From Lactobacillaceae bacterium AF64-9pH9TA (GTDB lineage Bacteria; Bacillota; Bacilli; Lactobacillales; Lactobacillaceae), in NCBI GenBank assembly GCA_027681045.1, contig JAQDCK010000001.1, positions 204,425 through 268,424 of the forward strand: a DNA stretch of 64,000 nucleotides, read 5' to 3'. The notes beneath the pieces are model-generated. The model was not told the origin of the DNA. It saw only the letters and a list, made by a program, of their open reading frames with translations, and did not search any database. Positions 43,735 through 64,000 of this stretch are shown one piece after another (the stretch's first letter is position 1; each line of letters starts with the position of its first letter). The translations under genes were made by a program, and so were the position numbers.

Positions 43735-45093
43735 ATGAAGAAGTTATATAGCGCCCTGATGGCCGCTGCCCTTATGCCCCTTTGCCTTTTGGCCGGCCAG
43801 GTCAGCCAAGCCAGCCAGGCAGATGAATATAATCCAGAAGTTAGAAACTTGCAGGTACGGGAAGGCGAATACCGGATTGCCCGAGAGCTGGTCAAGAATG
43901 CTAAAAGCTTGCCGGATAATACGGTATATGAATTCGTGCCCGAGCCCAATTTTGCCAAGGCGGGGGCTTATAAGACCCGGATCCGACTGCTTTATCCTGA
44001 CAATTCGATGGAGACCAGCCGGGAAGTAACCGTCAGCGTGTATGACCATGCCTGGAAAGCTAAGAAGACGGTCAAAAAGCATAAAAAGGCTAAGAGGAGC
44101 AAGAAGGCCAAGAAACGCGTTTCAGACGCCAAGCGCTACCAGGCCAAGGTGAAAGGGAAGAGAACGGCTTTTGGCCAGGCCTTCAAGTCCAAGCGCTTGG
44201 TCACCAACCGGGCCAAATTGCCTAAGAAGACCAGCTTCCGTTTTGCCCGAGTGCCAAACTTCAAGCGGGCCGGGAGCTATTACACGGCCGTTTTGGTCAC
44301 CTACCCAGACAAGAGCCAGGAATACACCCGGCAGGTTAAAGTGACGGTCAAGCGGCAGAAAGACAAGAGCAAGTACCAGCCTAAGGTCAAGGGTAAGACC
44401 GTTGCTTATGGGGCGAAATTAACAGCTAAGTCCCTAATTAAAAACGCCAAAGCCCTGCCAAAGAAGAGCAAGTATCAGCTCTCACAAAAGATCAACACTA
44501 AGCAGGCCGGGACTTACCTGCTTGCTGTCAAAGTAACTTACCCGGATAAGAGCTGGGAAGTGACAAGATTTGTTAAGGTCACGGTCAAGCGGAAGACTGA
44601 CAAGGCCCGCTACCAGGTCAAGGTCCGCCCAGGGCAGGTAACTTTAGGCCAGAAACTGTCACCAAGCCAGCTGGTGACTAACCTCTCCAGCTTGCCGAAG
44701 AAGAGCAAGTTTGCCTTTGCTGCCCAGCCAAATTGGCAAAAGGCTGGCAGCTACCGGACCAAGATCCAGGTGACCTACCCGGACAAGAGCAAGGAGACCA
44801 GCGCCTTTTTGACGGTAACTGTCAAAGATCCCGCTGATTCCACCCGCTACACGCCAGTCCTTTTGGCTGCCAAGACCGAGGCGGGCAAGGCAATCACGGC
44901 TTCCAGCCTGATTGCCAACTTTGCCTCCCTGCCGGCCGGCAGCCAGGCCAGTTTCGTTGCGGTGCCAGACTTTGCCAAAGCAGGCAGCTACAAGACCCAG
45001 ATCAAAGTTACTTACCCGGACAAGTCGACCTGGACCAGTTCAGAATTCATGATTGAGCTTGCCCCGGGAGCAGAAAGCAGGCAGAGTAACTGA
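43735..45093 (+). CDS. Secreted basic protein with five Rib-like repeats
   Basis: 452 residues. Sec signal peptide (MKKLYSALMAAALMPLCLLA ... QASQA, cleavage about 27-30), then five repeats of about 73-80 residues (roughly 32-104, 134-206, 213-285, 292-364, 371-443). Each has the pattern Y-x-P/A-K-V, LVKNAKSLP, F-x-x-A-G-S/T-Y and VTYPDKS..T..V.VTV, typical of Rib/alpha-like surface modules. Between repeats 1 and 2 lies a Lys/Arg tract of about 28 residues. There is no LPXTG or membrane tail; the strong positive charge suggests electrostatic binding to wall teichoic acids (inferred). GGAGG precedes the ATG; TATAAT at 43670. Confidence 0.82.
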   Translation: MKKLYSALMAAALMPLCLLAGQVSQASQADEYNPEVRNLQVREGEYRIARELVKNAKSLPDNTVYEFVPEPNFAKAGAYKTRIRLLYPDNSMETSREVTVSVYDHAWKAKKTVKKHKKAKRSKKAKKRVSDAKRYQAKVKGKRTAFGQAFKSKRLVTNRAKLPKKTSFRFARVPNFKRAGSYYTAVLVTYPDKSQEYTRQVKVTVKRQKDKSKYQPKVKGKTVAYGAKLTAKSLIKNAKALPKKSKYQLSQKINTKQAGTYLLAVKVTYPDKSWEVTRFVKVTVKRKTDKARYQVKVRPGQVTLGQKLSPSQLVTNLSSLPKKSKFAFAAQPNWQKAGSYRTKIQVTYPDKSKETSAFLTVTVKDPADSTRYTPVLLAAKTEAGKAITASSLIANFASLPAGSQASFVAVPDFAKAGSYKTQIKVTYPDKSTWTSSEFMIELAPGAESRQSN

Positions 45094-49236: not shown

Positions 49237-49291
49237 AAGGCAAATAGTGTTCGGGCAAGGCTCTGAACTTTAGTGAAATGCAGTGATAATT

Positions 49292-50503
49292 ATGGGTAAG
49301 AAGGCCTCTTTAAAAGGTTTGGGAATAAGCACGATTCTGGCTAAAGCATGGTGGTCCATGCTTTATTTGGGGATCTTTGTTTTTGGCAAGCATATTCCCC
49401 TGCCTTTTGCCAAGCTGCAGACCGGCCAGGTCAATCCACTGTTAGTCGCGACTGGCGGTGACAGCAGCCAGGCCAGCCTCTTTTCCTTAGGGATCAGTCC
49501 CTGGATGTCAGCCATGATCATCATTGGGATGCTGGCCCAGCTTCGCTTGCCGATGATGTCCAAAATGACAGAGCGGAAGATGGATATTGGCCAAAAGGCC
49601 TTGACCTTCTTCTTGACTGTAATTCAAGTGGCCGTCATGCTGCGGGAGTTCCAGCTGACCGATAACAGCTTTGGCAGCCGCCTGGCCGCCGGACTTTTCC
49701 TCATGGCTGGCAGCTTTCTTTTGATCTGGCTGAGCGTCGAAAATGACAAAAACGGCCTGGGCGGAATCAGCTTGATTTTGATGGCCAACATGTTCTTTAC
49801 ACTAATGAAGTCTTTTGCTAATGGCCTCATCCCGGGCCTCAGTGCTCAAAGTGCCAATATCGTTAGGGCCTTGGCTCTTTTTGTTATCCTGCTCTTAGGG
49901 GCGGTCACGGTTATCTTGACCAATGCCGAGCGCCGGGTACCGGTAACCAAGCTCTTGATCAGCGCGGAGTTTGGCTCAGAGTCTTACCTGCCGATCAGAA
50001 TCCTGCCAGCTGGCACCATGCCGGCCATGTTTGCCACGACCATGTTTGTCTTCCCAAAGTACATCTTGCAGTTTTTCTACAATCTGTCGAACTGGAAGTT
50101 TTTTAAAGTGCTGGCTAATGCCTTTGACTTAAGCCAGATCAGCGGCCTTGTTCTTTACTGCTTGATCCTGGCGGGGCTGACCTATGGCTTTTCATATATC
50201 TCGATTGACCCGGTCCAGCAGGCTGACGACATGCAGAAGTCAGGGGACTATATCCCGGGCTGCCGGCCGGGCAAGGAGACGGAAAGATACCTCCGCCACT
50301 TGATCAATGTTTTTTCCTTCGTCAGTTCAGTCTATTTCGTGCTCTTTACCGGCCTGCCGATGTGTTTGACCTTGCTTGATCCCAAGCTGTCCAGCCTGGT
50401 TATGCTGCCCAACTATGTCATCATCTTAGCTGGTTTTGGGGCGGCGATTTCTGAGCAGATCGAAGTTCTGCAAATCAAGGGCCAGTACCGGGGCCTGCTT
50501 TAG
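49292..50503 (+). CDS. secY2: Accessory Sec translocon channel SecY2
   Basis: 403 residues from the ATG at 49292 (a GTG at 49283 is possible; neither has a clear ribosome site). Ten membrane helices of the SecY fold, with the plug-helix region shortened, the cytosolic loop NAERRVPVTKLLISAEFG, LPIRILPAGTMPAMFATTM and the C-terminal YVIILAGFGAAISEQIEVLQ. It is far from canonical SecY and matches the SecY2 branch that exports glycosylated serine-rich proteins. First gene of the operon, 19 bases before asp1. Confidence 0.92.
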   Translation: MGKKASLKGLGISTILAKAWWSMLYLGIFVFGKHIPLPFAKLQTGQVNPLLVATGGDSSQASLFSLGISPWMSAMIIIGMLAQLRLPMMSKMTERKMDIGQKALTFFLTVIQVAVMLREFQLTDNSFGSRLAAGLFLMAGSFLLIWLSVENDKNGLGGISLILMANMFFTLMKSFANGLIPGLSAQSANIVRALALFVILLLGAVTVILTNAERRVPVTKLLISAEFGSESYLPIRILPAGTMPAMFATTMFVFPKYILQFFYNLSNWKFFKVLANAFDLSQISGLVLYCLILAGLTYGFSYISIDPVQQADDMQKSGDYIPGCRPGKETERYLRHLINVFSFVSSVYFVLFTGLPMCLTLLDPKLSSLVMLPNYVIILAGFGAAISEQIEVLQIKGQYRGLL

Positions 50504-50522
50504 CAGAAAGGGGGATAAAAGG

Positions 50523-52088
50523 ATGTATTATTTCGTGCCATCTTGGTACAGACGCGACCGGACCTGGCTCAGCTACGGGCAGATCTGGTTTTTGAACAGC
50601 GGCCTTATTCACTTTGACTTTGACGACAGCATCAACCAGATCCGGATGTTCAAAGATGAGGGGCAGCCGGTCAGAATTCTCACTTTGGGCTACCTGCCTA
50701 GCATTGGCAACTTCCTTTTCCGGCATAATATCCTGGACGCTGAGAGCGACAATATTTTTGACCTGATGCAAGGGATTCCGGCCGACCAGGTGGTTAGAAA
50801 CGTCAACTACTTGGACTTCAACTGGCCAAAGGACTGCAGCTTTGTTTACAATTCCTTCAACATCCTGGTTTACCGGGAAGATGAGCTTTACGCCCGGATC
50901 CGGATGGGGGTTACCGGCAATTTGATTCAGATCGAATTTGTCCGCCAAGGTTACAAGTACCGGACCATGTTTTTTGACTGGCGGGGCTTTTTGTCCAGCA
51001 TCCTCAACTACGACAATGAAGGCCGCTTCGAAAGCCGGGTCTTTCTGAACCCGGAAGGCGAGGAAGTTTTCCGCAACAACAAGGATGATTCAGTGACCAT
51101 TTTTGCCGCGGCCCAGGACCGCTTTAAACAGAGCCACTATGATTCGATCACGGACATGATCAGTGAGTACTTGGACAAGTATTTTGCTGAAAATCTAGAG
51201 CCCGACGACTCCTTTATCATCGCTGCCAGCCGCCGGCACGACCAGTTCCTTTTGGAAAAATTAAAAAATTACAAGACGGCGATTTCTTATTACGGTCACC
51301 GGACTCGCTTTGATGACCCCCATGTTTTTGAAACGGCCAAAATGGCCAGCATGGTCATCGCCGATTCCGACTATACGGTCAACTTGATGAAGGAAAACGG
51401 AGTTGAGCATGTTGTCCAGCTGCCTCCCCTTGATACGGACTTGACCATGGGGGAAAGCGACAGGGAACGCCTGCTCAAGGTCATGTTCATGACGGGCGGT
51501 TTGTCTGAAGAAGTGATCAGGCTAGCTTTGAAGGAGATTTTTGACGTGATGGAGGCTAATAAGCTGGTTGAGATCAACTTTGCTGACTACGCCGGCTTTG
51601 ACCAGTTCGGCATCCTGGACCGCTTAATCAAAGACGAAATGGCCAAAAGAGACTGCAAGTACCGTTATTGCTTTTTAAGGGCCAACCAGTCCCTGCCTAA
51701 GGAAATGGAAACAGAAGACGATGATGAAGAAAACCGGGTCCGCCGGATCAACTATGTCACCATCCACTCTGATACGGACTTGATCAAGATTCTCAAGCCC
51801 ATGCGCTTGATCGTTGACCTGTCGGCCAGACCGGAAATTTTCCTACAAGTGGTCGGCATCAGCACCGGCATCCCCCAGATCCACCTGGTTGAGTCTGACT
51901 ATGTCGATGATGGCAAAAATGGCCTCCGAATCGGATCGATTTCCGACCTCGGCGGGGCCCTGCACTACTACTTGGACGGGCTCAGCAACTGGAACCGGGC
52001 CAAGATGTACTCAGTCGGCAAGATCAACAACTACACGGCCGCCAAGATCGTGAAGGAACTGTCTGAGGCGGTAGGAGGGAAGGCTTGA
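50523..52088 (+). CDS. asp1: Accessory Sec protein Asp1
   Basis: 521 residues from the ATG at 50523 (the frame is open further upstream into secY2, but GGGGG lies just before this ATG). MYYFVPSWYRRDRTWLSYGQ is the family N-terminus. The body is a degenerate glycosyltransferase-B fold (FYxxxHRT-like YYGHRTRFDDP, DLSARPEIFLQVVGISTGIP). With Asp2 and Asp3 it forms the cytosolic complex that delivers the adhesin to SecA2. The stop overlaps the asp2 ATG by one base. Confidence 0.9.
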   Translation: MYYFVPSWYRRDRTWLSYGQIWFLNSGLIHFDFDDSINQIRMFKDEGQPVRILTLGYLPSIGNFLFRHNILDAESDNIFDLMQGIPADQVVRNVNYLDFNWPKDCSFVYNSFNILVYREDELYARIRMGVTGNLIQIEFVRQGYKYRTMFFDWRGFLSSILNYDNEGRFESRVFLNPEGEEVFRNNKDDSVTIFAAAQDRFKQSHYDSITDMISEYLDKYFAENLEPDDSFIIAASRRHDQFLLEKLKNYKTAISYYGHRTRFDDPHVFETAKMASMVIADSDYTVNLMKENGVEHVVQLPPLDTDLTMGESDRERLLKVMFMTGGLSEEVIRLALKEIFDVMEANKLVEINFADYAGFDQFGILDRLIKDEMAKRDCKYRYCFLRANQSLPKEMETEDDDEENRVRRINYVTIHSDTDLIKILKPMRLIVDLSARPEIFLQVVGISTGIPQIHLVESDYVDDGKNGLRIGSISDLGGALHYYLDGLSNWNRAKMYSVGKINNYTAAKIVKELSEAVGGKA

Positions 52089-53641
52089 TGGATTATTTTT
52101 TGCTTTACGGGGTAAAAGAATATCTGCCGCCCGTGCCTGACCGGGAAAACGCTAAATGGTTCCGGGCCGGCTATGGGGAAATGGATGACCTGATTAAAGA
52201 GCTTAAAGCAGACAAAAAGCTGGGTTTCAGGGGCTTTCAAGGGGCCTGGCTGATTGACCTACCAGAAGACGGGGACATCCCGGCCCTGGCCAAAAATTTA
52301 GATGCTTACACGATCATGGTTGACGATGACTTGAAAGATGAAGAACTGACTGAAAAAGCAGCCTTCTTCTTCAAATCCAAGCAGGTCCGCTTCGTCCATT
52401 TTGAAAGCAACAACCAGGCCTTTGCCTGGATTGAAAGCCGCCTTTTCGGCGGCCAGGTCGGCAGCAAGCTGGACGTCTCCAGCATGGAAGTTAACCCCCT
52501 CTTCAAGGGCAGAGTAGAGTTTAACGGCTTTGAAAATGTCCGCTTGAGCGGGAACTTTGGTGACGAATTCTGGCCGGTGATTAACTGGCGGTGGGGGATG
52601 TACTGTGACAAGGACCGGACCCTGGAATTGTGGCCCCAGTTCTTCAAGGATGCCAGCGTGGACATCCGCCTGGCTGTTTATGAAAACAATCCCGGTATCG
52701 CTGACAATGTCCGCCGCCGGGTTCTCTTTACAGAAGCTGATATGAAAAAGTGGCTCCTTTTTGAAGGGACCAACCCCGGCTCAATCTTAAACGTCAGCCT
52801 GGAAGCCAGAGGCGAAGGCAACTTGACCATGGGCAACATCCACTACCGCTGGTCTAGGCGTGGCCTGGGTGCCTTTATTGCGGGCGGAGAAGACCTGGTC
52901 GACAGCAAGCGTGATCCCTTGATTACCTACTTTAATCCTGGTGACCTCAAGCCGCCACTAAATATCTACTTTTCCGGCTACCGGACTGCGGAAGGTTTTG
53001 AAGGCTTTTACATGATGCGGTCCATGAAGGCGCCCTTCATGCTGATCGGGGATCCCCGCTTGGAAGGCGGAGCCTTCTATCTTGGCAGCGAAGAGCTGCA
53101 GGAGAAGCTAGTGGCCAGAATCCAGGAAAAACTGGACTGGCTGGGCTTTGACCGCCAGCAATTAACTATGTCTGGCCTGTCGATGGGGACCTTTGGGGCC
53201 CTTTACTATGGGGCAAAGTTGCAGCCAGGAGCTATCGTGGTCGGCAAGACGCTGGCCAGCCTGGGTAAGATAGCCCAGATGGAAAGAGACTACCGCTATG
53301 GGATTTTCCCGACGGCCCTGGACGTGTTAAACGCTGCTTCCCCAGATGACAACTGGCGGGGGGACTTTGATGAAAGGGCCCAGGCCTTGGACGACATGTT
53401 CTGGTCAACCTTTGACAAGGCAGATTTTTCTAAGACCACCCTGGCTATTGCTTATATGGAAGATGATGACTATGACCCCCATGCCTACCGGGATATCCTG
53501 CGCAGCTTCAGCCGCAGGAAGCAGGACAGCAAGATCATTGCCAAGGGCTTTCCCGGCCACCACAATGACGCGACCGGCCCCTTGGTCAAATGGTTCAGAA
53601 CCCAGTACGGGGCGATTTTGAAGGATGAATTCGGGCGATAG
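52088..53641 (+). CDS. asp2: Accessory Sec protein Asp2 (acyltransferase-type)
   Basis: 517 residues from the ATG at 52088 (TGATG overlap). An alpha/beta-hydrolase domain carries the nucleophile elbow LTMSGLSMGTFGALYYG with Ser365, and HH at 491-492 in GFPGHHNDATGP as the candidate catalytic His. In streptococci Asp2 both aids export and O-acetylates GlcNAc on the serine-rich adhesin; the intact Ser/His suggests the same here. It ends two bases before asp3. Confidence 0.9.
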   Translation: MDYFLLYGVKEYLPPVPDRENAKWFRAGYGEMDDLIKELKADKKLGFRGFQGAWLIDLPEDGDIPALAKNLDAYTIMVDDDLKDEELTEKAAFFFKSKQVRFVHFESNNQAFAWIESRLFGGQVGSKLDVSSMEVNPLFKGRVEFNGFENVRLSGNFGDEFWPVINWRWGMYCDKDRTLELWPQFFKDASVDIRLAVYENNPGIADNVRRRVLFTEADMKKWLLFEGTNPGSILNVSLEARGEGNLTMGNIHYRWSRRGLGAFIAGGEDLVDSKRDPLITYFNPGDLKPPLNIYFSGYRTAEGFEGFYMMRSMKAPFMLIGDPRLEGGAFYLGSEELQEKLVARIQEKLDWLGFDRQQLTMSGLSMGTFGALYYGAKLQPGAIVVGKTLASLGKIAQMERDYRYGIFPTALDVLNAASPDDNWRGDFDERAQALDDMFWSTFDKADFSKTTLAIAYMEDDDYDPHAYRDILRSFSRRKQDSKIIAKGFPGHHNDATGPLVKWFRTQYGAILKDEFGR

Positions 53642-53643
53642 AG

Positions 53644-54261
53644 ATGCAGAGCATTTATTGGAATGAAAATTGCAGTCCCTTCTGGCGGGGAATTTCCGGC
53701 CGGGACCAGCAGAAATACCGGAGCGGCTTTGCTTATACAGGCAGCACGGTCAAAGCGACTGGCCATGCCTATATGTATGGCTCTAAGATCATCCGCCGGG
53801 CCAGAGACGACGTCTTCTTTTATAACGGGGCCTTGCCGGCTGGCTCGGTCATCTACAAGTGGGATATGGTTTACAGCTACAGCACTGCCCACGCCATCCC
53901 GTCACTGCCTTTTTTGATCAATGGCCGTAAGTACCTCTTCCGCCTTTTAGCCGAAGCTGACCAGGAAGACGGCTTTTACCTGCGCCTGGTGGCTTTTGAC
54001 CGGGAGGACCGCATGGTTAAGCTGCAGATCATTCATGGCCAGAAGGGGATTTTCGAATTTCCGAAAGAGGCCAACTATTATACGATCGAACTCGTCGGGG
54101 CAGGCTGCCACCAGCTGGTCTTCCACCGGATCGACGTGGAAGAGATCACTGATGAGACGGACATCAGCCAGATCGACTGGGAAAAAATGCATGAAGAAAA
54201 CGAGCACCGGCGGCTCCTGGCAGCCCAGGTAGTTGACCGGTACTTGCGCAGAAGGGAGTAA
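53644..54261 (+). CDS. asp3: Accessory Sec protein Asp3
   Basis: 205 residues. Start IYWNENCSPFWRGISGRDQQ, then the beta-rich body with FFYNGALPAGSVIYKWDMVY and PSLPFLINGRKYLF, family marks of Asp3. The C-terminus is a charged helix (EKMHEENEHRRLLAAQVVDR). Asp3 binds unfolded serine-rich protein with Asp1 and Asp2. Four bases before secA2. Confidence 0.88.
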   Translation: MQSIYWNENCSPFWRGISGRDQQKYRSGFAYTGSTVKATGHAYMYGSKIIRRARDDVFFYNGALPAGSVIYKWDMVYSYSTAHAIPSLPFLINGRKYLFRLLAEADQEDGFYLRLVAFDREDRMVKLQIIHGQKGIFEFPKEANYYTIELVGAGCHQLVFHRIDVEEITDETDISQIDWEKMHEENEHRRLLAAQVVDRYLRRRE

Positions 54262-54265
54262 GGCC

Positions 54266-56653
54266 ATGGCCGCGATTGGAAGTTCGTTTTCAGCGGATTA
54301 CTGGGACCTGAGGAAAATCCGCCAGCTCTTAAAGAAGGTCAACCGGCTCAAAGAGCCGATGCGGCAATTGACTGATGACCAGCTCAAGGGCAAAACTGCT
54401 GAATTTAAAAAGCGCCTCAAAGCTGGGGCCAGCCTGGACAGCCTGATGGTTGAAGCTTACGCTGTCGTCCGGGAAGCTGACCGGCGGGTTTTGGGAATGT
54501 TTCCCCATGACAGCCAGGTGATGGGGGCAATTGGCCTCAACTATGGGAATATCGTGGAAATGAAGACCGGGGAAGGCAAGACCCTGGTCGCCACCATGCC
54601 TTTATATCTCAATGCCCTAAGCGGGGAAGGGGCAATTTTGGTGACGACCAACGAGTACCTGGCCAACCGGGACGGGGAAGAAATGTCCCAGGTCTACCGC
54701 TGGCTGGGCCTCACTTATGCCACTGGCTTCAGCCTGGAAGGCGAGAAGCTGAAGGTTAAGCAGAAAAAGAAGATCTATAATTCAGACATCGTCTATTCAA
54801 CCAGCGGGGCCTTGGGCTTTGACTACCTTTTGGACAATATGGCCCAGGAAAAAGACGAAAAGTACATGCGGCCATTCAACTACTGCATCGTTGACGAAGC
54901 TGACTCGGTTTTACTGGACATGGCCATTACCCCTTTAGTGATTGCCGGCTTGCCCAAGGTTAAGTCCAACTATATCGGGGTAGCTGACGAGTTTATCTAC
55001 TTTCTGGCAGAAGAGGACTACGAATTCAACGAAGAGCACAACAATGTCTGGCTGACTGAAGCCGGGGTCAAGAAGGCGGAAGACTTTTTCAGCCTGCCGA
55101 ATCTCTATGACGGTCAGCACACGGAATTAGTCCGCTGCCTCAACCTGGCCTTAAAGGCCCACTGCCTTTTTGAAAAAGAAGAGGCCTATGTGGTCGGCGC
55201 AGACGGCGGGGTTGACCTTTTGGACAAGGAGAATGGCCGGATCCTGGAAGGGATGAAGCTGCAGGCTGGCCAGCACCAGGCGATTGAAATGAAAGAGCAG
55301 CTGGATTTATCAGATGACCAGCAGGCCATGGCCGCGATTACCTATCAGAGTTTGTTCAGAATGTTCAAGAAACTGTCTGGCATGACTGGGACTGGTTATT
55401 CTGCCCGGGATGAATTTCTTAAGATCTACGGGACTAAGGTGGTCCGGATCCCGACCAACCGGCCGGTTATCCGCAAGGACCTGCCTGACCGGATCTACCC
55501 GGACCTGCCAAGCAAGCTGTTAGCCTCTTTGGAAGAAGTCAAGCGCCTGCATGCCCTGGGGCGGCCCGTTTTGATCATCACTGAATCTATTGCCGTTTCA
55601 GAAATTTATTCAGAACTTTTATTAAGAGAGCAGATCCCCCACAATGTTTTGAATGCCAAAAATGCCGCCAAGGAAGCCACCATCGTTAAAGAAGGCGGCC
55701 AGGTCGGGGCTGTTACGGTAGCCACCACCATGGCCGGCAGGGGGACTGACATTAAGCTGGGGCCAGGGGTGGCCGAACTGGGCGGTTTGGCCGTTTTAGG
55801 GGTAGCCAAGATGAGCTCAAGGAGAATTGACGACCAGCTGCGCGGCCGGGCCGGCCGGCAGGGGGACCCGGGGACCAGTGAATTTTTTGTTTCTCTGGAA
55901 GATGACGTGGTCATCAAGTACGGTCCCCTCTGGCTGGACCACTACCGGCAAAAATACCATGCTGAAAACTTGAACTTGACCCAGGTTCATGAGCTGAAAA
56001 ACTGGCGGATCAGGGAGGCTCTTAATTCTGCCCAAGTTAGAAGTGACGAAAGCGACTATAATGTCAGAAAGCAGCAATTGTCCATGGGGGCCAGCGACGA
56101 AATCCAGCGTGAGCAAGTCTACGAGATCAGAGACCAGATTATTTTTTCCAACGGGCTCAACTACGACCTGGAGGGCTGGATGAAGCAGCTTTTTAGCGAC
56201 TTTGTCCGCCGGCACCCGCACCTGGAAAAGAGGGACCTGCGCCGCTTTATCCTGGACAATCTGTCTTATGGCTTTGACGGCGACTTCAGCCAGCTGGATT
56301 TGAATAATCCAAAGGCAGTTGTAGCCTATTTGCTGGCCGTGGCTGAAAAAGAGCTGAAGCGCAAGGAAGAGTATTTTGACGATGAAGCTGAGAAAAAGCG
56401 CTTCTACAATCTGGCAGCCTTAAAGGCCATCGACGTCTGCTGGATCAAGCAGGTCGACAACCTGCAGCAACTGCGGCAGATGGTGGCCATGCGGACTTCG
56501 GCGCAAAGGGACCCGATGAATGAGTACCACCATGCCGCCTTAAGCTCATACAAGAAGATGTGCTGGGAGATTAAGCGGCTGACCATCCGCAATGTTTTGA
56601 TGAGCAGCATCACGATTGACAAGTTCGGAAAAAAGGATGTTTACTATGTCTGA
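54266..56653 (+). CDS. secA2: Accessory Sec motor ATPase SecA2
   Basis: 795 residues from the ATG at 54266 after GAAGGGAG. DEAD motor motifs: MKTGEGKTLVATMPLYL (Walker A), CIVDEADSVLLD (Walker B), MTGTGYSARDEF, TNRPVIRKD, TMAGRGTDIKLG and GRAGRQGDPGTSEFFVSLED. It lacks the C-terminal zinc-binding SecB domain of housekeeping SecA and is shorter, as for SecA2 of the SecY2/Asp system. It drives export of the adhesin through SecY2. Confidence 0.95.
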   Translation: MAAIGSSFSADYWDLRKIRQLLKKVNRLKEPMRQLTDDQLKGKTAEFKKRLKAGASLDSLMVEAYAVVREADRRVLGMFPHDSQVMGAIGLNYGNIVEMKTGEGKTLVATMPLYLNALSGEGAILVTTNEYLANRDGEEMSQVYRWLGLTYATGFSLEGEKLKVKQKKKIYNSDIVYSTSGALGFDYLLDNMAQEKDEKYMRPFNYCIVDEADSVLLDMAITPLVIAGLPKVKSNYIGVADEFIYFLAEEDYEFNEEHNNVWLTEAGVKKAEDFFSLPNLYDGQHTELVRCLNLALKAHCLFEKEEAYVVGADGGVDLLDKENGRILEGMKLQAGQHQAIEMKEQLDLSDDQQAMAAITYQSLFRMFKKLSGMTGTGYSARDEFLKIYGTKVVRIPTNRPVIRKDLPDRIYPDLPSKLLASLEEVKRLHALGRPVLIITESIAVSEIYSELLLREQIPHNVLNAKNAAKEATIVKEGGQVGAVTVATTMAGRGTDIKLGPGVAELGGLAVLGVAKMSSRRIDDQLRGRAGRQGDPGTSEFFVSLEDDVVIKYGPLWLDHYRQKYHAENLNLTQVHELKNWRIREALNSAQVRSDESDYNVRKQQLSMGASDEIQREQVYEIRDQIIFSNGLNYDLEGWMKQLFSDFVRRHPHLEKRDLRRFILDNLSYGFDGDFSQLDLNNPKAVVAYLLAVAEKELKRKEEYFDDEAEKKRFYNLAALKAIDVCWIKQVDNLQQLRQMVAMRTSAQRDPMNEYHHAALSSYKKMCWEIKRLTIRNVLMSSITIDKFGKKDVYYV

Positions 56654-56861: not shown

Positions 56862-58367
56862 ATGACAGTTTACAGCATCAACAAGGGAATCGGCTGGGCC
56901 TCCAGCGGGGTTGAATATGCCCAGGCCTACCGGGGCCAGGTCTTCCGCAAATTGGGAGTGAAGGCGAAGTTTATTTTTACCGACTGGATTGGCTATGAAA
57001 ATATTGCCCACTTGAGCCGGAATCTAGGCTTCAAGGACCGGGAAATCATCTGGCTGTACACCTTTTTCACTGACTTTGAAGTCCGGGCAGGCAGCTTTAC
57101 TTTAGACGACCTGGAAAAGGTCCTGCCGCCAATTCTGGAGCGCAAGCCCTTGAACAAGGCGGTCCGCTATATTTTTGCCAATGACTTTTGGGCTACGGCC
57201 TATTTGAAGGATTTGGGTTCGGGCATCGTTGACCGGGTGGAATACGTGTCCGGGGCCAATTTGGTCAGAAAGGACTATTACAGCTACGGCCGCTACTGCA
57301 GCGAGTTTTACGCTCCGGAAAGCAACCGGGCCAAGCTTTACCAGCGCCGTTTTTACAATGAAGACGGGACGGCAGTTTATGATGAAATAATCGATGGTGA
57401 CCATGAAATCTTCAAGTTCAAAGATGACATCTTGTACTCCAAACATGAGCTTTTGATCAAGATGTTGCGGGAATTGAATTTTTCCAAAAAAGACATCATC
57501 TTGATCGACCGGGCTGAAGACCAGGGCCAGGAAATTCTGGAAAACCGGGGCAAGGCCCGGGTGGGGACGATTGTCCACGCTGACCACTTCAGTGAAGCCG
57601 AGACCAATGACGCCACCATCCTTTGGAACAATTACTATGAGTATGAGTTCGAGCATGCTGACCAGATTGACTTTTATGTGACGGCGACTGACCTGCAAAA
57701 AGAGCTGATGGAAGAGCAGTTCTTAAAGTATAAGGGCAAAAAGCCTCAGATCTACGCGATTCCAGTGGGCAGCTTAAAAGAGCTGAAGAAGCCAGATTTT
57801 GCCTCCCGCCAGCCTTTCAGTCTGGTGACGGCGTCTCGACTGGCCAGTGAAAAGCATCTGGACTGGGCCATCCGGGCGGTGGCCAAAGCCAAGAAAGCCT
57901 TGCCGGAACTCAGCTTGGATATTTACGGGTCAGGTTCAGAGCGGACCATGCTGGAAGATGTGATCAAGGAAGTTGGAGCTGAGGACTATGTCCATTTAAA
58001 GGGACACCAGCAGATGGATGACATTTACCAGCACTACCGGGCCTATTTGACCTGTTCAACCAGCGAAGGCTTTGGTCTCACCTTGATGGAAGCAGTGGGG
58101 TCAGGCCTGGCCATGGTCGGTTTTGACGTCCGTTACGGCAACCCGACCTTTATCGCCGACGGGGAAAACGGCCTGCTTTTGCCATATGACCGGCTGGCAA
58201 CCGTGCCAGAGCATGTCAACGAAATGTCCCGGGCGATTGTCAAGCTTTTCTCATCAGACTTAGCCGCCATGTCAGAGAAATCTTATGAGATTGCCGGCAA
58301 GTATAAGGAGAAGCAGGTTGCCAAATTATGGAAAAAGGCCATAGAAAGTGAGCTGCACCGTGATTAA
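56862..58367 (+). CDS. gtfA: O-GlcNAc transferase catalytic subunit GtfA
   Basis: 501 residues. N-terminal MTVYSINKGIGWASSGVEYA is the GtfA hallmark. GT-B fold with the add-on beta-meander domain (VEYVSGANLVRKDYYSYGRY ... RRFYNEDGTAVYDEIIDG) and the retaining GT4 motif EGFGLTLMEAVGSGLAMVGF (E-x7-E). With GtfB it transfers GlcNAc to Ser/Thr of the serine-rich adhesin before export. Its end overlaps gtfB by eight bases. Confidence 0.93.
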   Translation: MTVYSINKGIGWASSGVEYAQAYRGQVFRKLGVKAKFIFTDWIGYENIAHLSRNLGFKDREIIWLYTFFTDFEVRAGSFTLDDLEKVLPPILERKPLNKAVRYIFANDFWATAYLKDLGSGIVDRVEYVSGANLVRKDYYSYGRYCSEFYAPESNRAKLYQRRFYNEDGTAVYDEIIDGDHEIFKFKDDILYSKHELLIKMLRELNFSKKDIILIDRAEDQGQEILENRGKARVGTIVHADHFSEAETNDATILWNNYYEYEFEHADQIDFYVTATDLQKELMEEQFLKYKGKKPQIYAIPVGSLKELKKPDFASRQPFSLVTASRLASEKHLDWAIRAVAKAKKALPELSLDIYGSGSERTMLEDVIKEVGAEDYVHLKGHQQMDDIYQHYRAYLTCSTSEGFGLTLMEAVGSGLAMVGFDVRYGNPTFIADGENGLLLPYDRLATVPEHVNEMSRAIVKLFSSDLAAMSEKSYEIAGKYKEKQVAKLWKKAIESELHRD

Positions 58368-59703
58368 TCTTTTCTTTGACTACAATCAAAAAAGCCAAGA
58401 CCTTGAGGGGTCGCTGAAACTGGCTGGTTACCAGCATCCAAGCGTGGTGATTCAAGACAACGGCTTTTTGCCAGAGGGCGTCGAATCACCCCTTAAGTAT
58501 TTTTTAGGCTTGGCTGGATCTGAATTTGCAGGCCGTCCCTGCTACTTTAACGAAATTGACCTGCCAGAATTCTGGGAAATCAAGGCGGACTCACAAGGCG
58601 GGGAAGTCCTGGATCATGGGCAAAAGCGGGCCAATATCCGCTACTGGAAAAACAACCGCCGCAGGCAGGTCAGCCAGGTTGAATGGTTGGATAAGTCCGG
58701 CCAGGTCCGGGTGATTGACCACTACAACCAGTGGGGCTGGAAATACGCGGTAACCAGCTGCGATAAAAGCGGCCGTCAGGCCATGACCAGCTATTTCGCC
58801 TCTAACGGCCAGGAAGTTTTGATTCAGAACCACTTGACCGGGGACTACACCTACAATCTTCCGGATGGGGGAATCTACAACTTCAAGAACATCAACCAGC
58901 TGACGGCATACTATCTGGAAGAAGCAGATTTTGACCTGGATGAAGTCATCTTCAATTCCCTAGGCAACTGCCTTTTTACATTGATCCAGTTAAAGAAGAA
59001 GCCGTCCCGCAACCTCCTTTTCTGGCAGGAAATCAGCCAAGGGTCGGTACCAGAAAACATGCTTTATCTTCTGGAAGACAACTTGCCAGGTGGCCGGGTG
59101 ATTGTCCAAGACAGGGCTGAATATGAAAAGATTACCGGCCAGCTGGACCGGCAAGTGGCAGAGAAGGTCAACTTCCTGGGGATGGTTTACCCGTTCAAGC
59201 GGGAAAACCAGGCCAGAAAACGGGCTTTGATTTTGACTAATTCCGACCAAATCGAGTGCCTCAAGCAGCTGGTTGAAGGCTTGCCGGACTGGCACTATGA
59301 CATTGCCGCTGTCACGGAAATGTCCGGCCGGCTGATGAATTTTGGCCATTATGAAAACGTGGCCCTCTATCCGGTGGCCAGAAACAAGGACGTTGCCCGC
59401 CTGCTGGAAGAAGATGACCTCTATTTGGATATCAACTATGCTAATGAAATTTTGCAGGCCGGCCGGCAGGCTTTTGAAAACCGCCTTTTGCTTTTGGCCT
59501 TCAGAGATACCTTGCATTCGCCGGAATACGTGGCAGCGAAGAATATTTTCGCGGCCAGGGATGCGGCAGGGATGATTGCCACAATTAAAGATTTATCAGA
59601 TCCTAAAGAATATGCCCGCCTGCTTAGCTTGCAAGAAGACCATGCCGGGTCAGAAACGGTTGAGCATTTCCGGGAAATTTTGGCAAAGAGCCTGCAAGAA
59701 TAA
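58360..59703 (+). CDS. gtfB: GtfB, substrate-binding partner of GtfA
   Basis: 447 residues from a GTG at 58360; another in-frame GTG at 58348 would add four residues, but INLFFDYNQKSQDLEGSLKL AGYQHPSVVIQDNGFLP matches the family from this point. GtfB has a GT-B-like fold without catalysis and holds the acceptor serine-rich region. Last gene of the operon before a terminator. Confidence 0.9.
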   Translation: MINLFFDYNQKSQDLEGSLKLAGYQHPSVVIQDNGFLPEGVESPLKYFLGLAGSEFAGRPCYFNEIDLPEFWEIKADSQGGEVLDHGQKRANIRYWKNNRRRQVSQVEWLDKSGQVRVIDHYNQWGWKYAVTSCDKSGRQAMTSYFASNGQEVLIQNHLTGDYTYNLPDGGIYNFKNINQLTAYYLEEADFDLDEVIFNSLGNCLFTLIQLKKKPSRNLLFWQEISQGSVPENMLYLLEDNLPGGRVIVQDRAEYEKITGQLDRQVAEKVNFLGMVYPFKRENQARKRALILTNSDQIECLKQLVEGLPDWHYDIAAVTEMSGRLMNFGHYENVALYPVARNKDVARLLEEDDLYLDINYANEILQAGRQAFENRLLLLAFRDTLHSPEYVAAKNIFAARDAAGMIATIKDLSDPKEYARLLSLQEDHAGSETVEHFREILAKSLQE

Positions 59704-59709
59704 TGTTTT

Positions 59710-59736
59710 AAGTCCGCTGAAAAAGCGGGCTTTTTT
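59710..59736 (+). terminator. Terminator of the accessory Sec operon
   Basis: AAGTCCGC / GCGGGCTT (one wobble), loop TGAAAAA, then TTTT. It separates the export and glycosylation genes from the adhesin gene. Confidence 0.82.
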
Positions 59737-59804
59737 GATAGCGCTAAAACACTTGAAATAATAGTTTTTTTGTAAATACCTTTTACTAATTGCCCTAGTG
59801 GTCG

Positions 59805-59989
59805 TGTTATAATTAATAAACAAAAGCCCATTTTTAACTTGTTGGCCGGACGGACGGTTTTACAGCGATTTAACTGGTTGTTGCAAAAATTTTTCCGGCG
59901 TTTTTGAGACGATCGGGCATAAAAAGATAACACTTTAAATATAACAAAACGTACATAATTTGCTTATGATTTACCTACAAAGTTATAAG
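59805..59989 (+). promoter_or_regulatory. Candidate promoters of the serine-rich adhesin gene
   Basis: An extended -10 TGT-TATAAT (TATAAT at 59808-59813) would give a leader of about 205 bases; TTGCTT (59960-59965) - 18 - TATAAG (59984-59989) would give one of about 30 bases. The 290-base gap 59737-60026 holds no gene. A nine-codon ORF (ATG 60020) overlaps the start. Confidence 0.55.
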
Positions 59990-60026: not shown

Positions 60027-63000
60027 ATGTCGAAGTCCAAGAAAGATAAGCAGGTAAAGAGAATGGTCCACTTCTCGGCAAAAGCCAAGGAAGCCATCAA
60101 GAAAGAGGAGAAGGACAGCAAGCGGAAGCTGAATAAGGAGAACGCGGTTAATGCCAATACTCGCGCGGCGTTAAAGGGGATCACTGCTTTAGGAGCCTTT
60201 GCCGGCGGGACAGCGGCTGCCAATGCCTTGATTGACAACAAGGCATTTGGGATCACTTCCCAGGTTGAGGCGGCGGATAACGCGAACAAGGATACGGCCA
60301 GCTTGAACTTTGTTGAAATTAGTTCCAATGAGAACGTTAACGAGTCCTCTCAGTCAGATACTTTGAGCCAAAGCCAGAGCCAGTCCAAGCCGCAGTCCTA
60401 CGCTGATTCAAGTACGGCCAACCAGACCCAGAGTGAGTCGCAGACTGAGTCCCAGACAAATTCTCAAACTGAATCAGCCAACTCAAGCCAGTCAGAATCT
60501 ACTAGCAAAGTTGCCAACAAGTCTGCCTCTGAATCAAAGTCAGAGTCCCTGTCGACATCAGAAACGGAATCTGAAACTCAGAGCGAAGGTAGCCAGAGTC
60601 AGACGGCCAAGGCTAAAGCCAATATCAAGCGTTTTGCTGCCCGTTCTGCTGCCATACCGTCAAATGAGTTAAACACGACTAACGTGAGTCCGGCAGAAAG
60701 CCAGGACAGCCAGCAGACCAGTACGGAGGCTTCAGCTTCCCAGTCTGTTTCTGAAAGCGTAGAGCAGCAAGCTTCTATTGACCGGTCCCAGTCAGTCAGC
60801 GCCTCAGAAGAAGCCAGTCTGTCAGCTTCAGCCAGCGAGTCAGCCGCGGTTGTTGAATATAACAGCAACTTGCAGGTCGCCCAGGCAGAAGCAAGCAAGA
60901 CCCAGCTGCAAACACTGTCAACGACCAAGTACTTTAGCAATAGCGTTGACAGCGGCAAGATTAGCGAACAAGACAACGATACAAACACTAATATCATTTA
61001 CGGCAATTACCGCTTTTACTACTACACCGGCGGCTACAGCGGCACTGGGACCAACATGAGCCAGACGACGGTTGGCTTTGATGCCCAGACCGGGAAGACC
61101 ACCTACTTGATTGAGGTCAACCCGGCGGGGACTGCTGAAGGCACGCAAACTGTAACGATCTCCGGCTTAAATGACGGTGCTTCTGTCAAGGTTTACAGGG
61201 TGGAAGCCAGCCACTTGAGCCAGCTAGATGTTAACACGGTCATCGACCAACTGGATGACCAGGATAACTTCCGCCAAGTTAGCGTGGATGCTAATGTTTC
61301 AAATGGTCAGACTAACTTTAGCGTTGACACTGACTATTGGTATTTTAATCGGGGTTACTACTCATATGTAGCAGTCGTTGAGAACGCGACGGGCCTTACA
61401 ACGGCCAGTGAAGTAACGACGACTGTGCAGCAAGATTACCAGACTGCCGGGATAACGACGACTTTTGATGCTAGCCAGTATCAAGCTGACAGTGAGTCTA
61501 TGTCAACGGAGGCATCGGGCTCAATTAAAGATAGCTTGTCGACTTCTGTGTCAGAGCATGAGTCTCAGTCTAAGTCAGTCAGCGCGGTTGCTTCTGAGAG
61601 CCAATCTTCAAGCAAGAGCCTGTCTGAAAGTGAAAGTCAGGCAATTAGCCAGTCAGAATCAAGCAGCATCTCAAAAAAGAAAGCAGACAGCTTGTCTGTT
61701 TCAGCCAGCTTGAGTACTTCTGCTTTAGAAAGCGAGTCTTTAAGCAAGAGCCTGTCTAAAAGCGAAAGTCAGTCAGTAGCAACTAGTCTTTCAGAAAGTG
61801 AACTGGCGAAAAAAGATGCTGAAGCCAGCTTGAGCCTGCAGGACAGGGATGCATCACTTTTGGCAAGCAAGGAAGACGCGGAAGATGCTTCAGAGAGCGC
61901 TAGCGCGTCAACCAGCACCAGTCTGTCAGAATCAGCAGATTCAGCACATTCAGTTAGCGCGTCAGAATCTTTGTCTAAAGAAGAAGCCAGCGAATCAGAG
62001 AGAATATCAGCAAGCACTTCCGCGGTTGCGTCCGCGTCAGCTTCTGTTTCAAAATCACTCTCACAATCAGTTAGAGAATCTGAAAGCACCAGCAGATCAA
62101 GAGCTGAAAACTACTCCCTAAGTGTTGCGGACTCCATGAGCACTTTGGCCAGCCAGACGGCAGCCAACAAGGGCTTCTTGCTGTACGAAAAGAAAATTAC
62201 AAGCATCACTGACAATCCTTACGGAGCAAAAACTCTGTCAGACTTGAAGGGTTATATGAACCTTTCAACCGGGGTTATTACTTGGGAAGTAACTTACCAG
62301 CCGAAGAACCAATCAGGTCAGGATGCATACTTTGGTTTCTTTGTAAACAGCATGTCGGGTTTGGAAAAGGCTGACAACATTACTGTTTACTCAAATGCTT
62401 CTGGCGCGGTAGTTGCAGCTTACAGCTCGAGCAGCAGCAACAACACTCTTTATAATGTCAACAATACGTTTAGGAACAGGGATTGGGGCGGCAAGCAGGC
62501 GCTGGGCTTCAACGTAAATAGCAGCCATGTTGACGACAGCAGATTTATTGGGAACCGTTATTATGGGGATGCCTACACGACAAGCAACAAGATTGATACG
62601 TCAAGCGGGGTAGTAGTTACTTTTACCACTAAGATCCCAACTGATAACTTGAGTGAATTTGCCACAATTGTTAACAACGTCCTCGTTGAAGTTCAAGCAG
62701 ACGAAAGTGCAACTTCATCTGTTGTCCACGCTACTGGTGCTGAACGAAACTCTGGGCAACATAACCTGGGTGCCATCATGGCGGGTTACAAGAACTCCTA
62801 CATTAAGGAGGGTTTTGACAATTCCAACAGTGAAGCTCAGTCTCAGTCAGTTAGCCGGTCAACATCTGAAGCACAAAGCAAGTCAGAAGAAGCTGAACGC
62901 AGCAAGTCAGTTTCAACTAAGCAAAGTGAAGAAGACCGCCGTAGTGACAGCCGGTCCAAATCATTGGACGAAAGCTCATCAGAGTCAGCATCTAGAAGTG

Positions 63001-64000
63001 AATTAGCATCTAAGTCTGCTGAAGAATCGGCTTCGATCAGCGAATTTAAGAGCACGAGCAGATCACTTTCCAGAAGCGAATCCCGTTCCAAGCGTGACTT
63101 AGTTTCCAACTCTATTTCAGAGAGCAAGTCCTTGTCGACCTCACTGAGCGATTCAATTGCTAAGTCAGAATCTGAAAGCATCAGTGAAGAAGCAAGCAAG
63201 AGCGAATCTGTCAGAGCTAGTGAATCAGCTAGCCTGAGCAAGAGTGCATACGAATCGACTAGCAGCTCACAATCAGAAAGCCTGTCAAGAAGTCTCGCAT
63301 CAGAATCTGACAGTAAAAAGGCAGAAAGCGACTCAATTTCAGTATCACAAAGCATAAGTCAGCAGATTTCTGAAAGCGAAAGTGCGTCTAAGAGTGCTTC
63401 TGAGGCTAGTGAATCAGCATCCAAGTCACTTAGTGAATCTAAGTCAACTAGCTTGAGTCAATCGGTTTCAACTTCTCAAAAATTAAGTGAATCTGTAGCT
63501 GCTTCAAAGAGTGCGAGTGAATCAGAATCGGCCGCTCTCAGCCAAAGCCTGTCTACTGCGGTTAGCCAAAGCAAGTCAACTAGCCAAAGCGTTTTAGCCA
63601 GTGCTTCGACTTCTAAATCTCTCAGCCAAAGCCAGTCAGCAGAACAATCTAAGAGCAAGTCTGAATCACTTAGCAAGAGCAAATCTGTTAGTGCTTCTAT
63701 CAGCCAGTCTGAATCTGAGTCTGCAAGCACTAGCCTGAGTGAAGAAATTTCCAAGGTAAAGTCTGAGTACGAGTCGGACTCTAACAAGGTTTCAGAGAGA
63801 TTGAGTACGATTGAATCAGCCAGCTTGTCAACCGCAATTTCTAAGAGCACGATCAGCAGCGAAGAAGCTTCTAAGAAGCTCTCAGAAATGCTAAGCCAAT
63901 CGACTTCATTCTCTGAAAAGATCAGTAAGTCGATTAGTGAGTCTAAGAGTGAGAGTGAGTCTGCAAGTACTTCAGCGTCAACCAGTGCAAGCACTTCAGC
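60027..64000 (+). CDS. Serine-rich repeat glycoprotein adhesin (3' end beyond window)
   Basis: Open from ATG 60027 to the last base, at least 1324 residues with no stop; an in-frame TGA two codons upstream fixes the start, with GGGAG ten bases before it. Residues 1-82 are the long accessory-Sec signal: basic N-region (KSKKDKQVKRM, KKEEKDSKRKLNKEN), glycine-containing hydrophobic core GITALGAFAGGTAAANAL (51-68), cleavage near SQVEA-ADN. Then serine-rich spacer 1 (about 107-273), non-repeat module 1 (274-487, Tyr-rich: FYYYTGGYSGTG), spacer 2 (488-692), non-repeat module 2 (693-931: KGFLLYEKKITSITDNPYGA, GVITWEVTYQP, DAYFGFFVNSMSGLEK), and spacer 3 (932 onward, Ser-x dipeptides with x = E, K, R, Q, A, L, T). 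Expected: glycosylation by GtfA/GtfB, export by SecA2/SecY2, sortase anchoring. An LPXTG tail cannot be seen. Confidence 0.93.
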   Translation, partial: MSKSKKDKQVKRMVHFSAKAKEAIKKEEKDSKRKLNKENAVNANTRAALKGITALGAFAGGTAAANALIDNKAFGITSQVEAADNANKDTASLNFVEISSNENVNESSQSDTLSQSQSQSKPQSYADSSTANQTQSESQTESQTNSQTESANSSQSESTSKVANKSASESKSESLSTSETESETQSEGSQSQTAKAKANIKRFAARSAAIPSNELNTTNVSPAESQDSQQTSTEASASQSVSESVEQQASIDRSQSVSASEEASLSASASESAAVVEYNSNLQVAQAEASKTQLQTLSTTKYFSNSVDSGKISEQDNDTNTNIIYGNYRFYYYTGGYSGTGTNMSQTTVGFDAQTGKTTYLIEVNPAGTAEGTQTVTISGLNDGASVKVYRVEASHLSQLDVNTVIDQLDDQDNFRQVSVDANVSNGQTNFSVDTDYWYFNRGYYSYVAVVENATGLTTASEVTTTVQQDYQTAGITTTFDASQYQADSESMSTEASGSIKDSLSTSVSEHESQSKSVSAVASESQSSSKSLSESESQAISQSESSSISKKKADSLSVSASLSTSALESESLSKSLSKSESQSVATSLSESELAKKDAEASLSLQDRDASLLASKEDAEDASESASASTSTSLSESADSAHSVSASESLSKEEASESERISASTSAVASASASVSKSLSQSVRESESTSRSRAENYSLSVADSMSTLASQTAANKGFLLYEKKITSITDNPYGAKTLSDLKGYMNLSTGVITWEVTYQPKNQSGQDAYFGFFVNSMSGLEKADNITVYSNASGAVVAAYSSSSSNNTLYNVNNTFRNRDWGGKQALGFNVNSSHVDDSRFIGNRYYGDAYTTSNKIDTSSGVVVTFTTKIPTDNLSEFATIVNNVLVEVQADESATSSVVHATGAERNSGQHNLGAIMAGYKNSYIKEGFDNSNSEAQSQSVSRSTSEAQSKSEEAERSKSVSTKQSEEDRRSDSRSKSLDESSSESASRSELASKSAEESASISEFKSTSRSLSRSESRSKRDLVSNSISESKSLSTSLSDSIAKSESESISEEASKSESVRASESASLSKSAYESTSSSQSESLSRSLASESDSKKAESDSISVSQSISQQISESESASKSASEASESASKSLSESKSTSLSQSVSTSQKLSESVAASKSASESESAALSQSLSTAVSQSKSTSQSVLASASTSKSLSQSQSAEQSKSKSESLSKSKSVSASISQSESESASTSLSEEISKVKSEYESDSNKVSERLSTIESASLSTAISKSTISSEEASKKLSEMLSQSTSFSEKISKSISESKSESESASTSASTSASTS
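60345..64000 (+). repeat. Serine-rich repeat regions (three blocks)
   Basis: Low-complexity Ser-x repeats at 60345-60845, 61488-62102 and 62820-64000 (continuing). Ser codons mix TCA, TCT, AGC, AGT, TCG and TCC, so the protein repeat is much stronger than the DNA repeat. Confidence 0.9.

Follow-up and report, generated by a model that had tools for sequence, protein, structure and literature searches.

Serine-rich repeat proteins (SRRPs) serve commensals and pathogens alike as colonization adhesins. Descriptions of them normally show a single head on a single stalk, and the canonical layout has one binding region (PMC6973325; PMC6291802). Why should an SRRP carry two non-repeat modules in series? 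Here, we describe such a gene from Lactobacillaceae bacterium AF64-9pH9TA, located in a stretch of 64,000 nucleotides (contig JAQDCK010000001.1, positions 204,425 to 268,424 of the forward strand) that was analyzed as a whole and is called the window below. The frame starts with an ATG at 60027, runs on the + strand through 1324 codons to 63998 with no stop, and is open at the window edge; its 3' end lies beyond the window, and the C-terminus of the window's own protein is not visible. The frame encodes an SRRP adhesin, and its two-module layout is real and conserved in the lineage. We consider it reasonably likely that the product is a two-headed, glycosylated adhesin exported by the accessory Sec system, encoded by a mosaic gene and holding both heads in series on a single stalk.

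Layout of the adhesin

Serine content and aromatic plus glycine content were profiled in 60-residue windows along the translated frame. The serine fraction is 0.22-0.33 over residues 91-270, drops to 0.07-0.18 at about 300-510 (module 1), reaches 0.32-0.43 at about 481-690 (spacer), drops to 0.10-0.20 at about 720-960 (module 2) and lies at 0.33-0.50 after module 2, up to the window edge; the aromatic plus glycine fraction runs inversely, with 0.10-0.32 in the modules and 0-0.07 in the serine-rich parts. These profiles bear out the alternation of signal, spacer, module, spacer, module and long spacer that the original prediction had read from the sequence, and the module limits, set here from relatives at about 286-495 and 707-934, are close to the 274-487 and 693-931 proposed there.

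All parts lie on the + strand. A long, basic N-terminus (residues 1-95, 60027..60311) is a putative signal region of accessory-Sec type with a Gly-rich hydrophobic core, GITALGAFAGGTAAANALI; it scores 14.2 bits (E 0.033) against TIGR04224, under the cut-off of 25. There follow a first serine-rich region (residues 96-285, 60312..60881, 29% Ser), module 1 (residues 286-495, 60882..61511), a serine-rich spacer of about 210 residues (residues 496-706, 61512..62144, 38% Ser), module 2 (residues 707-934, 62145..62828), and the start of a long serine-rich stalk (residues 935-1324, 62829..63998, 41% Ser) that continues past the window. This is the SRRP order of a first serine-rich repeat region (SRR-1), a binding region and a longer SRR-2, the length of the latter being seen in Lactobacillus nasalidis, plus an extra module and spacer.

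The two modules are mutually unrelated by sequence (BLASTP E 0.82; hhalign probability 0.4%), which rules out, at that level, a duplication of one into the other. That they are unrelated had been claimed from the start, and this stands for their sequences and less firmly for their folds, as the two might conceivably be distant members of one immunoglobulin-like (Ig-like) adhesin superfold. Searching each module separately against adhesin families, as had been proposed, was productive in one respect: module 2 could be linked by profile to chain 2x12 of the adhesin Fap1 (below), and neither module scored above the cut-off of any Pfam family. All Pfam rows of the window adhesin are sub-threshold: UPF0542 falls in the signal region and PDZ_1, at E 0.32, in module 2. 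Neither module matches Pectate_lyase_5 or pAdhesive_15 at E <= 1, and a known Pfam adhesive domain in either module was rejected. NCBIfam gave zero matches to module 1. Its rows for module 2 (BC85_0335_fam, E 0.0025, 17.5 bits against a cut-off of 65; GyrA_w_intein) were disregarded as far under cut-off, as were whole-protein matches to ClfA/Sdr families, which fall largely or wholly within the serine repeats. Plasmid carriage of the modules was also rejected, with no tblastn match of either to 72,556 plasmid records.

Relatives with both modules

A length-limited, word-based search of 5.8 billion proteins returned one relative per module, and both times the same protein, P0001, a 939-residue fragment carrying both modules (82% identity in module 1 and 97% in module 2, at full coverage). 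Aligned with P0001, the window protein has 167/184 identical residues in the first serine region (6 gap columns), 178/209 in module 1 (8 gap columns), 156/167 in the spacer (44 gap columns) and 222/228 in module 2 (no gap columns). Scanning genome contigs with module 2 yielded a single locus, in L. nasalidis, which encodes both modules followed by a serine stalk of more than 2200 residues; the start of this gene appears to lie on another contig. Among 75 genomes of the genus, two contain module 2 and the same two contain module 1: L. nasalidis (G001) and G002, the latter encoding the sole full-length relative (3654 residues, 854 of them masked; L011:374-11371). Each keeps the module order in one frame, so the two-module layout is more than chance. 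As the layout is common to the window, P0001, L. nasalidis and G002, with identity to G002 down to 39% in module 1 (58-63% in module 2), these alignments place it as old within the lineage. Recent domain addition, one of the explanations first offered for the second module, is thereby rejected within the lineage; the data show instead a mosaic exchange across genera, described below.

The locus is decayed in two near relatives. G062 and the window organism are almost conspecific (four housekeeping proteins 97-99% identical, among them HslU at 98.9% and TrmFO at 98.2%), yet the G062 adhesin is reduced to short pieces (L063, L054), and tblastn found no SecY2, Asp1-3 or SecA2 on the G062 contig. 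In G013, SecY2 and SecA2 survive as fragments, GtfB is split and the adhesin is broken (L064, L055). Searches found neither module at these two decayed loci. From this decay, the adhesin is probably dispensable in some niches.

Module 1

Module 1 is lineage-specific: searches of 397 genomes of the family and 390 of the order found it in one genome each, G001 in both, these sets being samples of larger groups in which absence is not proof. Its differences from P0001 are in part scattered and in part clustered in two segments with many Tyr, Trp and Phe residues, and these variable segments are candidates for a binding surface. A low-confidence structure model is all-beta and resembles the Ig-like subdomains of MSCRAMM adhesins (SdrG, FnBPA, ClfA; DEv-IgG fold); together with its relatives, it presents module 1 as a fast-diverging, probably all-beta and probably Ig-like head. 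The fold comparison (VIA) also ranks non-adhesins (4ei0 7.7, 2r39 7.3, 7wrk 7.2, integrins 7.0-7.1), which shows that the match is partly to a common beta-sandwich arrangement. The only PDB sequence hit of module 1 was to a de novo protein, over a short stretch and without significance. MSCRAMM adhesins are defined by two adjacent Ig-like subdomains for dock-lock-latch binding; unlike these, module 1 consists of one stretch, about 210 residues long, between serine-rich flanks, with no N2-N3 pair and no sequence match to that group.

Module 2 and its relation to Fap1

A profile built from four module 2 sequences matched in three of 395 genomes of the order, namely G641 (E 3.8e-11), G520 (E 7.1e-5) and G001. 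With G641 added, the profile matched in three of 73 genomes of that strain's genus (G641 itself, G852 at E 3.1e-29 and G807 at E 1.4e-7) and, in the genus of G520, in one of three, G520 itself (E 1.1e-6). The G520 region in turn matches the solved Fap1 chain 2x12 (E 1.7e-19), which we take, with the help of elimination from a review's description (PMC3601411), to be the NRbeta part of Fap1. A profile that excludes G520 (A7) aligns with Fap1 2x12 at an hhalign probability of 93.4% and a score of 51.4 (at most 18.5 in 60 shuffles) and with G520 at a score of 67.5 (at most 20.3 in 60 shuffles); as controls, six other Lactobacillus binding regions and a pAdhesive_15 region from G201, a genome of another genus, scored at most 18.4. 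By these profile comparisons, module 2 is homologous to the non-repeat region of some Lactobacillales SRRPs and, via these, to Fap1 2x12, and is referred to as a Fap1-NRbeta-type domain. Its structure model was unusable (pLDDT 34.3), and fold comparisons are meaningless at that confidence. No helical subdomain of NRalpha type stands right before module 2, where the residues are those of the serine spacer. When module 2 of the long L. nasalidis frame, limited to residues 425-655, was used as a protein query, nothing matched at E <= 0.001.

Slow evolution of module 2, which G201 has in common with the window along with its serine flanks, would also fit an arrangement in which only module 1 is adhesive, while module 2, a conserved domain of stalk or spacer type that shares ancestry with Fap1-NRbeta, serves as a stiffener, a checkpoint for glycosylation or export, or a site of self-association. 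Module 1 is the variable part, as expected for a receptor-facing head, and the helical subdomain of Fap1 is described as driving fibre-fibre contact (PMC3601411). However, G641 has a complete SRRP gene with an LPKTG end, in which the module 2 homologue is the sole sizeable non-repeat region from the first serine stretch to the stalk. The homologue lies in the first non-repeat region in G852, G807 and G520 too, in frames that are cut (G852, at a contig end, and G520) or interrupted (G807); in G852 a stretch that looks helical by eye precedes it. Moreover, both Fap1 subdomains are reported to take part in binding saliva-coated mineral (PMC3601411). A purely structural module 2 is, in our judgment, somewhat unlikely.

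Mosaic origin of the gene

G201 belongs to another Lactobacillaceae genus, outside the 75-genome set. Its SRRP (L062:3-5330) has pAdhesive_15 first (PF20597, E 2.6e-18), then a spacer, then module 2; this SRRP and GtfB are on different contigs. Identity to the window stays at 10-20% through the first head and rises to 64% in the spacer and 64-65% in module 2; the early stalk is at 62%, with 196 gap columns. Because composition alone makes serine repeats alike, four unrelated SRRPs, another serine part of G201 and 100 shuffles were used as a control: the last 119 spacer residues agree at 80/119 (67%), against 38-48% for unrelated repeats and at most 47% for shuffles, and the stalk at 62%, against 47-53% and at most 43%. 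On these alignments the spacer end (from about residue 589) and module 2 are clearly common to the window and G201, and the stalk moderately so. Two conserved non-repeat stretches, ELAKKDAEASLSLQDRDAS in the spacer (61800-61856, residues 592-610) and SKVKSEYESDSNKVSERLSTIES in the stalk (residues 1242-1264), are largely common to G201 and may be functional sites or recombination anchors.

Measured against the window, GtfB of G201 is 36% and GtfA 45% identical, versus about 65% for module 2, and G002 shows the reverse, with GtfB (64%) above module 2 (58%). This conflict argues for a horizontal transfer of the second half of the gene, in which module 2 would have moved between Lactobacillaceae genera and come to lie behind different heads. 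Module 2 occurs in 1 of 50 genomes of G201's genus, and simple contamination is ruled out by an identity far from 100%. Within the window, G+C content is 0.50-0.51 from the signal region through module 1 and 0.45-0.47 from the spacer onward. Synonymous divergence (pS) from L. nasalidis falls along the gene, from 0.81 for module 1 through 0.55 for the spacer to 0.45 for module 2 and the stalk, and Asp1, Asp2, GtfA and GtfB have values of 0.56-0.63; this contrast suggests that the two halves may differ in history even between the window species and L. nasalidis. Codon use in serine repeats could contribute to the contrast in G+C and pS.

A mosaic boundary inside the serine spacer, with G+C falling at that point, could also mark a plain fusion in which recombination joined two ordinary SRRP genes within their serine repeats, which would be obvious sites for it, leaving two heads that bring no advantage. 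Against such an accident, the two heads are kept in three diverged Lactobacillus sequences and in P0001, and a different pair of heads arose in G201. Under drift, one would expect to see one of the heads broken, whereas neither was found at the decayed loci in G062 and G013. We regard a fusion of this kind as very unlikely.

Other Lactobacillus SRRPs and their C-termini

GtfB is found above cut-off in 14 of the 75 genomes of the genus. The neighborhoods of 13 genomes other than L. nasalidis and G002 (G060, G025, G070, G072, G068, G034, G022, G005, G027, G009, G010, G062 and G013, the last with a split GtfB only) were taken as far as contigs allow, and antisense serine-rich frames were excluded before SRRPs were counted. 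Eight SRRPs (G060, G025, G070, G072, two in G022, G005 and G027) have one non-repeat region each, in agreement with the expectation, stated at the outset and in the literature (PMC6973325), that one binding region is usual; five of the eight frames (G070, G072, one of G022, G005 and G027) are incomplete, interrupted within the C-terminal repeat by a contig end, stretch end or stop, so that a later module is possible there. Seven of the eight regions match Pectate_lyase_5, a type to which neither window module belongs. The G010 SRRP has no non-repeat region, G068 and G034 show C-terminal serine frames only, and G009 stops at a contig edge. One G022 SRRP frame (L049:4319-17089, 4257 residues) has a serine-poor region of about 1330 residues; a Pfam search of the first 1696 residues of this frame matched none of the known adhesive domains and returned just PTHB1_GAE, for which no individual stretch passed. 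The frame adjoins a second SRRP with a pectate-lyase-like region.

All seven visible C-termini (G060, G025, G068, G034, G022, G027 and G010) carry LPQTG or LPTTG. The G002 relative differs from these and from usual SRRPs: its sequence closes with a segment rich in Pro, Ala, Thr and Gly, followed by a short serine tail, and has neither an LPXTG nor a clear hydrophobic segment there (best 19-residue mean 0.88, versus 1.21-1.47 in the seven others). With such an end the adhesin might be secreted and act as a soluble linker between mucin or cells, its two heads serving for bridging. A tail of this kind, also lacking LPXTG, is found in the decayed G013 copy, and SssP1 of Streptococcus suis is reported as an SRRP without LPXTG (PMC6973325). 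However, the C-terminus of the window protein itself is out of view and 854 residues of G002 are masked, and SssP1 is reported to act in adhesion, with a suggestion that its C-terminal domains may tether it (PMC6973325). A secreted linker is thus unlikely in our view. SRRPs without LPXTG in this lineage nonetheless raise the question of how a long fibre stays on the cell.

The accessory Sec and glycosylation locus

The adhesin gene is part of a complete accessory Sec and glycosylation locus, which lies directly 5' of it on the + strand and in which 7/7 genes score above the cut-off of their own TIGR family. These are the translocase channel SecY2 (49283..50503; TIGR02920, 254.3 bits, cut-off 249.6; in NCBIfam, 283 bits against a second family, NF009082, under its cut-off of 353), Asp1 (50517..52088; TIGR03713, 400.8 bits, cut-off 136.1), Asp2 (52085..53641; TIGR03712, 528 bits, cut-off 210.75), Asp3 (53644..54261; TIGR03711, 109.9 bits, cut-off 67.25), the ATPase SecA2 (54266..56653; TIGR03714, 1061.4 bits, cut-off 930), the glycosyltransferase GtfA (56862..58367; TIGR02918, 710.7 bits, cut-off 574.6) and the glycosylation chaperone GtfB (58348..59703; TIGR02919, 481.9 bits, cut-off 338.3). 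GtfA starts O-glycosylation, and the presence of GtfA and GtfB suggests that the serine repeats are O-glycosylated.

A pattern scan of the gap between GtfB and the adhesin gave, on the + strand, one terminator-like hairpin (59710..59732; shuffled mean 0.7) and two promoter-like matches (59735-59762 and 59941-59970; shuffled mean 1.2). These counts are in no clear excess over shuffles; the adhesin may have its own transcript, separate from GtfB. A few genes upstream of the operon, the window encodes a secreted-looking protein of 452 residues (43735-45093) with five Rib-domain stretches (PF08428, E 3.7e-71) and, by eye, no LPXTG at its end; in G002, a similar frame with YPD repeats (L010:3-860) lies 5' of the accessory Sec operon.

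Comparison with known systems

SRRP adhesins such as SRRP53608 and SRRP100-23 of L. reuteri have a SecY2-Asp1-3-SecA2-GtfA-GtfB operon beside the gene, and a long signal region, SRR-1, a non-repeat region and a serine-rich SRR-2 (PMC6973325); the window protein is alike in these respects, its signal region being a putative one, and differs by its second non-repeat module across a 210-residue serine spacer. In Fap1 of Streptococcus parasanguinis, to whose chain 2x12 module 2 is related, NRalpha and NRbeta lie within a single region and are connected by a linker of 27 residues (PMC3601411), whereas module 2 of the window protein follows a serine spacer and another kind of head. Two modules in series are also present in an SRRP of S. 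sanguinis SK1, whose adjacent tandem Siglec-Unique modules are discussed in terms of avidity or a broader target range (PMC7586212); those are mutually related and directly adjacent, whereas the window modules are unlike in sequence and parted by serine repeats. Extra putative binding domains across a serine region occur in SrpA of Streptococcus salivarius, which has MucBP domains on both sides of SRR-2 (PMC6973325), whereas the window protein has a Fap1-NRbeta-type domain between two serine regions. The original prediction had allowed that a two-module layout might already be standard. No description of this two-head layout, nor of an L. nasalidis adhesin, was found in the literature covered, to which supplementary tables and most subscription papers do not belong.

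Discussion

Dual adhesion is a plausible and, to us, the most likely reading of the two modules. GtfA and GtfB would glycosylate the serine regions in the cytoplasm, and SecA2 and SecY2 with Asp1-3 would export the adhesin. Module 1, the outer head and probably Ig-like, may provide strain- or host-specific recognition by diverging fast, partly in its aromatic-rich stretches. Module 2, the conserved inner head, about 210 serine-rich residues nearer to the cell, may make a second contact, with a host glycoprotein or neighboring cells. The mosaic would reflect the movement of the module 2 half between Lactobacillaceae genera, where it is found behind different N-terminal heads. Several points weigh against this account: profile A5, which excludes three additional rows, matches Fap1 more weakly than A7 (score 30.3, probability 26%), hmmsearch with A5, A6 and A7 against PDB sequences gave no match for module 2, the match between module 2 and Fap1 spans a core of 60-90 columns only, and G201 could contain an assembly chimera.

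A possible, more tentative extension of dual adhesion is a mix-and-match design, in which an outer head open to exchange (of DEv-IgG-like type in the delbrueckii lineage and pAdhesive_15 in the other genus) would be joined through serine-repeat recombination to a horizontally mobile cassette of Fap1-NRbeta-type domain and stalk; the outer head would set host specificity, the inner head would do a shared job in contact between cells or with mucin, and the fibre would not be sortase-anchored. Two heads at different heights may be avidity partners, separate tools, or a sensor and a cell-cell connector. Most surprising among these observations is that heads are exchanged across genera and that the inner head is of Fap1 type. 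If true, a conserved two-head design with independently moving heads would give commensals a route to change host or tissue specificity.

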